Origin: Paracoccaceae bacterium
GTDB taxonomy: Bacteria; Pseudomonadota; Alphaproteobacteria; Rhodobacterales; Rhodobacteraceae
Direction of reading: 5' to 3'
Assembly: GCA_020629115.1 (NCBI GenBank)
Contig: JAHDDY010000003.1
Coordinates: 9,792-47,358 of the forward strand
Length of the DNA: 37,567 nucleotides
Part shown: in pieces, positions 25,039-27,430 of the stretch
How positions within the stretch are numbered: the first letter of the stretch is position 1
Layout: the number at the start of each line of letters is the position of its first letter
Program-made: the position numbers and the translations under genes
The notes under the pieces: model-generated
Told to the model about the DNA's origin: nothing
Database searches by the model: none
Seen by the model: the letters and a program-made list of their open reading frames with translations, nothing else

Positions 25039-25605
25039 TCAGGAATCGGGCGCGAAGCGGTTCCACACCGACCGCGCCGCCGGGGCCGACGCGCACCGTT
25101 CGAGCGTCAGCGCGCGCCAGCGATGCGCCGGGCTGAAGGTCGCCGCGCTCTCCGTCCCCACCGTCAGGCACAGGTCCGCCCCCGTCAGCGCGATGCGCCC
25201 GTCCGGGCGGTGGGTGAAATCCTGCAGGGCCGCATCGACGAAGGGCGCGCGGGACGCGTCGATATCGCCCGCGCATGGACGCAGCATCACCGGCGCGCCG
25301 GGCAACGAGGTCCCGTTCAGCCCCACCGCGGTCACGCAGCCCTCGTAGGCCGGAAAGCGGATCGGCCCCGGCGCGGCGAACCTCACCGCCTCGTCGGCGA
25401 AGAGGCCGGGGCGCTTGCAGTTATGGGCATTGAGCGGCATCGAGAAATCCACCCAGTCGCCCGAACCGGGCAGGTCGAGGCAGTAGCCGTCTTCGGGCCG
25501 GTCGAGCCGGTCCGCCAGCTCCAGATATCCCGCTCCGTCCTGCCAGGCAGCGGCGGGGGTGGCGAGAAATGCGGTGAAGATGGCGGCGGGCAGGGCGCGG
25601 GGCAT
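25039..25605 (-). CDS. Secreted protein of unknown function, weakly ricin B-lectin-like
   Basis: The 188-residue product has a signal peptide (cleavage likely after TPAAA before WQDG). The exported part has six or so cysteines, and repeated motifs YCLDLPG, GCVTAVG and LCLTVGT...WRALTLERC that recall the repeats of ricin-type beta-trefoil lectins (C-L plus Q/R-x-W). GGGAGAGAG precedes the ATG at 25605. I do not recognise a specific family. Carbohydrate binding in the periplasm or outside the cell is a guess. It lies beside the tandem non-coding element. Confidence 0.75.
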   Translation of the reverse strand: MPRALPAAIFTAFLATPAAAWQDGAGYLELADRLDRPEDGYCLDLPGSGDWVDFSMPLNAHNCKRPGLFADEAVRFAAPGPIRFPAYEGCVTAVGLNGTSLPGAPVMLRPCAGDIDASRAPFVDAALQDFTHRPDGRIALTGADLCLTVGTESAATFSPAHRWRALTLERCASAPAARSVWNRFAPDS

Positions 25606-25710
25606 GGGTCTCTCTCCCGAAGAACTGTCGTTGTTCCACGAACTGGGATATCCGGGAGCGGCGTCAAACCCGCGGGAGGAAAATTCAATCACTTTAAAAG
25701 CGATGCGCTG

Positions 25711-25996
25711 TACTTGGACCGCCTACAATTTTACACGCTTCTTCGGTTCTTCTTCGATGCGGATCGGCGGGTATGTTCATGTTTGACGGGCATAGTCCAT
25801 CTTATCGGAAGACGGGGACGGTCGACCGATACGGTGGCTCGGGGGAGCCACGGGACAGCACAACAAGGAAGCGCAAGACTTCCGGGGGACGACGGTGGCA
25901 CGGGGTTCGGGGGAACCCGGTGCCGATGGGGAGGGGAAGGTCGGGGGGCCTTCGTCGGGAAAGGGCCGGGCATCACGCCCGGCCCCTTTCGTTCGT
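25711..25996 (+). ncRNA. Candidate structured small RNA, tandem copy 1
   Basis: This is the first of two similar units in an 800-base gap without a credible gene. From about 25803 it folds into successive hairpins. TATCGG/CCGATA (25803-25831) has a loop containing GGGG. GTGGCTC/GAGCCAC (25834-25851), GGGTTC/GAACCC (25903-25918) and GAAGGTC/GGCCTTC (25936-25953) each have the loop GGGG and the shared apex TCGGGGG. GGAAG/CTTCC (25867-25883) lies between them. It ends in GGGCCGGGC-ATCAC-GCCCGGCCC (25963-25985) followed by a T-rich stretch, which favours the plus strand. Shared sequence starts abruptly at TACTTGGACCGCC, possibly marking the promoter. Overlapping frames show no conserved protein features. 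The 5' end is uncertain and the opposite strand cannot be excluded. Confidence 0.6.
25963..25996 (+). terminator. Terminator-like hairpin of tandem copy 1
   Basis: A 9-base-pair GC stem, GGGCCGGGC / GCCCGGCCC, with loop ATCAC is flanked by AAA on the left and C-TTT-CG-TT on the right. The T-tract is weak and interrupted by CG. The same structure exists in copy 2 with a better tail. Confidence 0.6.
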
Positions 25997-26030
25997 GCCG
26001 CCGACAACCGGCGCGTGGATAGTGTTGCGA

Positions 26031-26316
26031 TACTTGGACCGCCTACAATTTTACACGCTTCTTCGGCTCTTCTTCGATACGGTCGGTGGGTATGTTCATG
26101 TTTGACGGGCATAGTCCATCTTATCGGAAGACGGGGACGGTCGACCGATACGGTGGCTCGGGGGAGCCACGGGACAGCACGACAAGGAAGCGCAAGACTT
26201 CCGGGGGATGAGAAGACGGCGCGGGGTTCGGGGGAACCCGGTACCGATGGGGAGGGGAAGGTCGGGGGACCTTCGTCGGAAAAGGGCCGGGCATCACGCC
26301 CGGCCCTTTTCGTTTC
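26031..26316 (+). ncRNA. Candidate structured small RNA, tandem copy 2
   Basis: This unit starts 320 bases after copy 1 and is about 90% identical by eye from TACTTGGACCGCC to the terminator. The GGGG-capped hairpins recur at 26153-26170, 26224-26239 and 26257-26274. In the last one the stem is GAAGGTC/GACCTTC, where copy 1 has GGCCTTC, so an A-U pair replaces a G-U pair and the helix is kept. The changed segment before the second GGGG hairpin (TGAGAAGACGGCGC instead of CGACGGTGGCAC) weakens its outer stem. It ends in a strong terminator. The gene on the minus strand beyond it (secreted low-complexity protein) ends about 90 bases away. Confidence 0.6.
26280..26316. terminator. Terminator hairpin of tandem copy 2, potentially two-way
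   Basis: AAAA-GGGCCGGGC-ATCAC-GCCCGGCCC-TTTT forms a 13-base-pair stem followed by CGTTT on the plus strand. On the minus strand the same hairpin is followed by TTTTCC, so it may also stop transcripts from the secreted low-complexity protein gene. Confidence 0.75.
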
Positions 26317-26406
26317 TGCCATCGTCGGAATGACGATCCATCGCGCCGCTGTACCCGAACCGGGCAACCCCCGGAAGGTCGGCAGCGGTGTGCGATGCCC
26401 CGATGC

Positions 26407-27045
26407 TCAGGGGCTGGTGGTGGTGGTGGTCGACGAGCTATCATCGTCGTCGTCATTGGCGACGACCGCGATGAGGCCGACGAGCGCGGCGGCACCCAAT
26501 GCCCCCCCGACGAGGGCGGCATTGCTCAGACCGGCGGCCTGGAACGGCACCGCCGCGTAGGCGGGCGGAGCTGCCGCAGCGACGATCGGTGCCGGAGCCA
26601 CCGGAGCGACGGGCGTCGGGACCACCGGCGGCGGTGCCACGGGTGCGGAGGCGGGAACGATGGGCGCGGGGGCCGGCGTGCCCGAGTAGCCTACGAACTC
26701 CTGGAAGGTCGCGGGATTGAGATCGAGAGGCTGGCCGCAATCCTCGATCAGAAGGGCGCCGCCGATGGCGCTGGCGTTGGCGTTCGCTCCCGAAGGGTTG
26801 CACTGATACGTCTCCGCCAGCTGCCCTACGTTGACGGGGTTGTAGTTCTGCGCCCCTTCGCCGCTGATCTGGGTCTGGTACCGCGTGGGTTCGACCGGCG
26901 TGAGCGTGACGCATTGCTGGCCGGACGGCGTAAGGCCCGTGGCCGGATTGCAGCTGGACAGGACGCTCTGTCCGAAGGACATGCTCGTCGCCGGAAAATA
27001 GAAAGCGCCGGCCGCGATGACGAAGGTTGCGATAGTGTTTTTCAT
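26407..27045 (-). CDS. Secreted or membrane-anchored low-complexity protein of unknown function
   Basis: The 212-residue product has a hydrophobic N-terminus (MKNTIATFVIAAGAFYFPAT) that looks like a signal sequence. A region with several Cys residues follows, then a Pro/Ala-rich stretch (about residues 120-165), a Gly/Ala hydrophobic segment (GGALGAAALVGLIAVV) and the tail NDDDDDSSSTTTTTSP. Hydrophobic-then-acidic tails of this type occur in many uncharacterised Rhodobacterales proteins. GAGGGAGA precedes the ATG at 27045. I do not recognise a family. A surface-exposed anchor is inference. Confidence 0.75.
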   Translation of the reverse strand: MKNTIATFVIAAGAFYFPATSMSFGQSVLSSCNPATGLTPSGQQCVTLTPVEPTRYQTQISGEGAQNYNPVNVGQLAETYQCNPSGANANASAIGGALLIEDCGQPLDLNPATFQEFVGYSGTPAPAPIVPASAPVAPPPVVPTPVAPVAPAPIVAAAAPPAYAAVPFQAAGLSNAALVGGALGAAALVGLIAVVANDDDDDSSSTTTTTSP

Positions 27046-27430
27046 GGTCGTCTCCCTCAAGGTGAAAGGCCGTCTGCTGACAGTCATAATAAAAGGTTTG
27101 CTTTCGGTATCATGTCGGCTCCGGTCCGTTTGGAGCGCTGAATGTTCGACTGTGTAAGATCAGAAAGCGTTCTCTATTCCAAGATGTAGAACCCTCGACA
27201 CCTTGGCATCGAGGGTTCCTGTGCCGTAGTATGATCAAAGTGCCCACTCTAACCATCCGTATGTGGTAGCATTGGTTTGAGCGTGTTTCAAGATAGAACA
27301 AATATTACTTATATCAACCTAAGGGTTATTGTCAGATGTCGGACCAATACGGTGAACATCCTACCGTCACAGGGCTGTTCATTCCTGTACGGCGCACCGG
27401 CGCTTTGATCGTTCGATGGTCGACGCGGTC
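27046..27430. other. AT-richer intergenic region with one hairpin
   Basis: This gap is clearly richer in A and T than the rest of the window, with AATATTACTTATATC near 27300. It holds a perfect 10-base-pair hairpin GAACCCTCGA / TCGAGGGTTC (27189-27218) with a 10-base loop and no T-tract. A short frame on the minus strand shows no protein features. The half nearest 27045 should contain the promoter of the low-complexity protein gene. I see no RNA gene that I recognise. Confidence 0.6.

Follow-up and report, generated by a model that had tools for sequence, protein, structure and literature searches.

A tandem pair of structured units with GGGG-capped hairpins in a Paracoccaceae genome: probable small-RNA genes and a possible role as G-rich sponges

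What are two near-identical, highly structured units doing in a stretch of DNA without a gene? The question arose for a sequence of 37,567 nucleotides (the window), in which an earlier note had described two units of about 290 bases recurring with a period of about 320 bases in a gene-free gap of about 800 bases. This description was accurate. The units are direct repeats on the plus strand, about 290 bases each, and both lie inside an 802-base gap (Table 1). They are approximately 94% identical overall (93–98% in individual blocks) with a period of 319–321. No further copy turned up when the full assembly (4.3 Mb, 98.8% complete) was searched. The left neighbouring gene (25039–25605, minus strand) diverges from the units and the right one (26407–27087, minus strand) converges on them; thus, the units stand alone. 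The spacer between them has no clear likeness to the flank of either unit (local alignment, P = 0.07 for the left and P = 0.67 for the right flank). This suggests that the duplication is not fresh, or that selection or gene conversion keeps the units alike. The head of the unit contains TACAAT without a recognisable -35 element, and a promoter scan of the units recognised none.

Around this locus lie metabolic and transport genes of an ordinary kind. The left gene codes for a small protein with weak similarity to ricin-B-lectin; it adjoins and overlaps a long open reading frame of S-formylglutathione hydrolase, and this block is conserved in the genus. The product of the right gene looks secreted; it is rich in Pro and Ala, its C-terminal part has a hydrophobic stretch, and its tail is DDDDDSSSTTTTT. 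It has paralogues in its own genome (three matches) and relatives in 14 of 14 genomes of the genus, and matched no Pfam or NCBIfam family. Phage families gave no match to the neighbouring genes.

Table 1. Positions of the repeat units and their elements in the window.
Feature	Position	Strand	Basis
Unit 1, proposed sRNA gene 1	25711–25999	+	Direct repeat blocks; own-genome search
Unit 2, proposed sRNA gene 2	26031–26320	+	Direct repeat blocks; own-genome search
Spacer, 31 nt, without clear likeness to either unit's flank	26000–26030		Local alignment
AT-rich unit head, 36 nt, same in both copies	25711–25746	+	Repeat comparison
Hairpin TATCGG...CCGATA, GGGG in loop	25803–25831 (unit 1); 26122–26150 (unit 2)	+	Fold prediction
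GGGG-capped hairpin 1, GTGGCTC-GGGG-GAGCCAC	25834–25851 (unit 1); 26153–26170 (unit 2)	+	Fold prediction
Hairpin GGAAG...CTTCC, then GGGGGA	25867–25883 (unit 1); 26186–26202 (unit 2)	+	Fold prediction
GGGG-capped hairpin 2, apex GGGTTC-GGGG-GAACCC	25897–25924 (unit 1); 26218–26245 (unit 2)	+	Fold prediction
G/A-rich site GGGGAGGGGA against alpha-R8 core UUUCCUCCCU, unit 1	25928–25937	+	Complementarity; opening 4.4 kcal/mol
G/A-rich site GGGGAGGGGA, unit 2	26249–26258	+	Complementarity; opening 6.8 kcal/mol
GGGG-capped hairpin 3, GAAGGTC-GGGG-GGCCTTC	25936–25953 (unit 1); 26257–26274 (unit 2)	+	Fold prediction
GC hairpin resembling a terminator, T tract weak (unit 1)	25960–25992	+	Repeat/terminator analysis
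GC hairpin resembling a terminator, followed by T tract (unit 2)	26279–26316	+	Repeat analysis

The earlier note had assigned to each unit three hairpins with one shared apex (a stem ending in UC, the loop GGGG and a stem resuming with GA), one more stem with GGGG in its loop, and an end hairpin followed by a T-rich tract. Each unit has three hairpins of six or more pairs capped by GGGG, as well as the additional stem (25803–25831 in unit 1). In hairpin 2 of unit 1 the capped portion of at least six pairs is 25903–25918. The shared apex has one exception: the last hairpin of copy 1 reads UC-GGGG-GG and not GA, i.e. the closing neighbour in hairpin 3 is U-G in unit 1 and U-A in unit 2. A GC hairpin does end each unit; the T tracts 3' of it are weak (CTTTCGTT and TTTTCGTTT). 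Three GGGG-capped hairpins in unit 1 compare with a mean of 0.08 in shuffled sequences, and none of 2,000 shuffles reached three. In the 37 kb of the window outside the units there are only three such hairpins with at least six pairs, which is chance level. The octamer TCGGGGGA by itself shows no enrichment in the window (5 occurrences, 3.4 expected); what is unusual is its concentration on hairpin tips. The capping GGGG loops are predicted to be unpaired with a probability of 0.96–1.0. The predicted folds of the cores have z-scores of -5.48 (25803–25957) and -4.01 (26122–26278), and none of 200 dinucleotide shuffles folded as well. The z-scores of the whole units are weaker (-2.55 for unit 1 and -3.95 for unit 2). 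In a fold scan of 750 segments of the window those from the units ranked first, third, sixth and eleventh.

Do the differences between the copies respect these helices, and do they indicate a strand? Four pairs differ on one side and remain paired. The earlier note had the copies keeping their helices, which does not hold throughout: an outer pair of hairpin 2 turns into a broken C-A in copy 2. Two-sided covariation between the two copies was not found, and conservation of a structure cannot be proved from two copies. The hairpins fold on both strands. The four one-sided changes are between A-U and G-U or between G-C and G-U on the plus strand; on the minus strand they would be A-C mismatches. 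Because of these G-U compatible changes, and because a terminator-like hairpin lies at the plus-strand end of the units, the plus strand is preferred. The minus-strand alternative would expose CCCC loops, but its 3' end is without a terminator.

Next to be considered are readings without a trans-acting RNA. The claim of the earlier note that the units are non-coding agrees with their codon score, which is negative in six of six frames when confirmed genes nearby serve as the reference for codon usage; the neighbours score positive (+0.36 for the left and +0.14 for the right gene). Nevertheless, an open reading frame at 25773 (MFMFDGHSPSYRKTGTVDRYGG...) has the same start in both units and might be a gene for a small protein. 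Over 120 nt only one synonymous change separates the copies, and a G-rich stretch lies ahead of the second ATG. Yet its codon score is -0.48, its GC3 is 0.65–0.68 compared to 0.90 in reference genes, the two copies differ in how the frame ends, and neither Pfam nor NCBIfam gave a match. We consider such a gene highly improbable. A cis-acting leader or riboswitch was rejected: the next downstream gene lies on the opposite strand and is convergent, therefore the units cannot be its leader. A MITE or other mobile repeat, against which the earlier note had already argued, was rejected as well; there are no terminal inverted repeats apart from the terminator hairpin, and the genome has two copies, both at this locus.

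The distribution of the units was examined in genome samples holding one genome per species, in the family about one species per genus, and the large searches were run under stricter filters; rare relatives can therefore be missed. The covariance-model and Rfam searches proposed by the earlier note turned up no relative. No homologue was detected by DNA search or covariance model in 14 genomes of the same genus or in 397 genomes of the family, and none by covariance model in 385 genomes of the class. The model used, R1, was built from the unit core and was run on the 397 family, 41 near and 385 class genomes; its matches of up to about 25 bits had no GGGG loops and were judged to be chance. 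DNA searches gave matches outside the window mainly to the terminator region (101 relatives), and in the 397 family genomes only scattered chance-level matches of 18–52 nt. Without a homologue anywhere searched there is no covariation to draw on. In several genomes of the genus the neighbouring block is conserved as far as 25573, and the units are absent there. Viral contigs, plasmids and phages contained no homologue of the units, and Rfam gave no match at its gathering cut-off. A search of genome contigs for the triple-loop pattern yielded a single match, which was rejected as unrelated: a degenerate tandem array of TTCGGGGGAACAT-like units on a Bacteroidetes MAG contig (L047, 7200–7580).

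How do the units compare with known RNAs? CcsR/cuckoo RNAs, named in the earlier note as the closest known idea, are C-rich. Like the units, these RNAs of Rhodobacterales are tandem, homologous and structured. The units differ in being G-rich, in lying apart from DUF1127 genes and in carrying a terminator-like hairpin each, whereas CcsR RNAs are located 3' of a DUF1127 gene and derive from one processed transcript (PMC10253847). In this genome DUF1127 genes are on contigs C228, C175, C18 and C76 and none is on C37, the contig of the units. Lacking both the CcsR motif CUCCUCCC (the plus-strand loops are GGGG) and a position downstream of DUF1127, the units were not counted as CcsR/cuckoo members. 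A genome search for cuckoo RNAs by paired CUCCUCCC gave one match, not above the reversed-pattern control, and no CUCCUCCC RNA was found downstream of the DUF1127 loci. SorX (RF02784) was also discarded; the units score 29.0 and 24.1 bits against a cut-off of 46.6, mainly through a shared GC terminator. The repeated-loop design is matched by no family searched.

G-rich loops that lie exposed suggest C-rich RNA as a pairing partner. The earlier note had raised this possibility, which is plausible given two precedents, although the CcsR/cuckoo partner it had in mind was not found where checked. CrfA of Caulobacter crescentus sponges the alpha-R8 RNAs (SisA-D) via a G/A-rich stem loop directed against the core UUUCCUCCCU (PMC12559287). 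It is a stand-alone alphaproteobacterial sRNA with a G/A-rich segment complementary to UUUCCUCCCU (PMC12559287); the units have a segment of this type, too. The units are different in being tandem, in carrying three GGGG-capped hairpins, and in being known here from sequence alone; the comparison was made by described features, and the units match no Rfam family above cut-off. RosA of Bacillus subtilis, a stand-alone sponge about 225 nt long, has three G-rich regions and its own terminator and binds RoxS and FsrA (PMC8216469). RosA and RsaI/RsaOG of Staphylococcus aureus resemble the units by two to three G-rich regions, which in these sponges bind C-rich sRNAs (PMC8216469). They belong to another phylum, are single-copy and CcpA-regulated, and have no demonstrated sequence kinship to the units.

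We consider it most likely that the units are two lineage-restricted genes for trans-acting sRNAs on the plus strand. As siblings in tandem, each would end at its own GC-hairpin terminator. The transcripts might then act in trans as G-rich sponges: the exposed GGGG loops and single-stranded GGGGAGGGGA would capture C-rich sRNAs of the anti-Shine-Dalgarno type, the likeliest being an alpha-R8/MmgR-like RNA whose core is UUUCCUCCCU, and the capture would relieve repression of the mRNA targets of this partner. Transcription, its strand, the partner and the sponging are the parts of this explanation which we infer. Taken as a whole it is the best one that we have and is held tentatively, somewhat below an even chance. 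GGGGAGGGGA, which is identical in both units, forms 10 of 10 contiguous pairs with UUUCCUCCCU, three of them G-U, at -15.7 kcal/mol. In the predicted fold part of the site is paired, and opening it costs 4.4–6.8 kcal/mol. Because such a G/A-rich site arises in 7% of unit shuffles (a chance of about 0.07 per unit), the sponge role, our leading hypothesis, is offered as a lead and not as a result. In addition, GGAGG is a plain Shine-Dalgarno-like string and would suit any anti-Shine-Dalgarno string.

As a partner, an RNA carrying the alpha-R8/MmgR core is a better candidate than a CcsR/cuckoo RNA. We take RF00519 (mmgR) and alpha-R8 to be one family; the RF00519 consensus carries UUUCCUCCCU. In this genome one candidate lies in an intergenic region beside two DUF1127 genes (L096, 1840–1738, minus strand, contig C228 of genome G000). 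It first drew attention in the DUF1127 loci for being C-rich, before the comparison with CrfA. Its features are UUUUCCUCCCUUU, a weak hairpin of the CUUG/CAAG type and a seven-T terminator. RF00519 is its best Rfam match with 23.7 bits, below the cut-off of 41, and in this alignment the core of the candidate is not aligned to that of the family. By raw duplex energy 99% of stretches of the same length pair better than this candidate; at about 70% GC, RNA duplex energy is uninformative as a target predictor. A plasmid search with the candidate gave no match. Separately, the minus strand carries TTTCCTCCC at 25674–25682, just upstream of the left gene and about 30 bases from unit 1; it has 9 of 10 letters of the alpha-R8 core, with 0.23 expected by chance in the window.

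The same anatomy can be read in other ways. Duplicated palindromic DNA without a functional RNA, be it an old tandem duplication, a set of protein-binding hairpins or the remnant of an unknown mobile element, would agree with the negative promoter scan, with the lack of homologues in the searched genomes, with folding on either strand and with the absence of the units beside the conserved neighbour block in the genus. However, a terminator-like hairpin closes each unit, the one-sided changes fit RNA pairing on the plus strand, and the units have remained 94% identical next to a spacer which resembles neither flank; they exist in two copies only and are devoid of terminal inverted repeats. We regard this as quite unlikely. 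Titration of a protein comes to mind since the hallmark of CsrB/RsmZ is an apex sequence that recurs from hairpin to hairpin, a trait which the units share with CsrB, RsmY and RsmZ; RsmZ also gave a weak match (E = 0.96). The identical loops could then sequester an RNA-binding protein, possibly an undescribed one. Against this, the unit loops are GGGG closed by C-G and lack the A(N)GGA recognition string, and CsrA (PF02599) was absent from the 98.8%-complete genome while control genomes were positive, which also disfavours the CsrA-like binding mentioned in the earlier note. We know of no other candidate protein, and judge titration to be quite unlikely as well.

Tandem sRNAs might, instead, pair directly with C-rich mRNA leaders via their GGGG loops, as trans antisense RNAs and without a sponge function. 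Several identical loops would suit many mRNAs with CCCC tracts, and in a genome of about 70% GC targets of the CCCC type are abundant. At this GC content target prediction has no discriminating power, however, and the two best-matched G-rich precedents target sRNAs (PMC8216469, PMC12559287). We view this as rather unlikely. A more elaborate form of sponging, in which the pair captures several C-rich sRNAs of the anti-Shine-Dalgarno type simultaneously (CCCC-bearing RNAs by the GGGG loops, the alpha-R8 family by the G/A strand), as a lineage-specific device that arose independently of CrfA and RosA, we also think unlikely.

In summary, the tandem pair at this locus is real, strongly structured and restricted to its lineage, and its members are most likely sRNA genes whose general kind is already known. 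If they are no more than two orphan sRNAs, they would join the many lineage-specific ones as a routine case. If the units are transcribed and sponge an alpha-R8-like RNA, another lineage would have built its own equivalent of CrfA and RosA independently, with its genes in duplicate and its loops repeated. One could then test whether C-rich anti-Shine-Dalgarno sRNAs are generally checked by unrelated G-rich sponges. And if several loops and the G/A strand did work simultaneously, in a device of independent origin, this would show repeated evolution of G-rich sponges.
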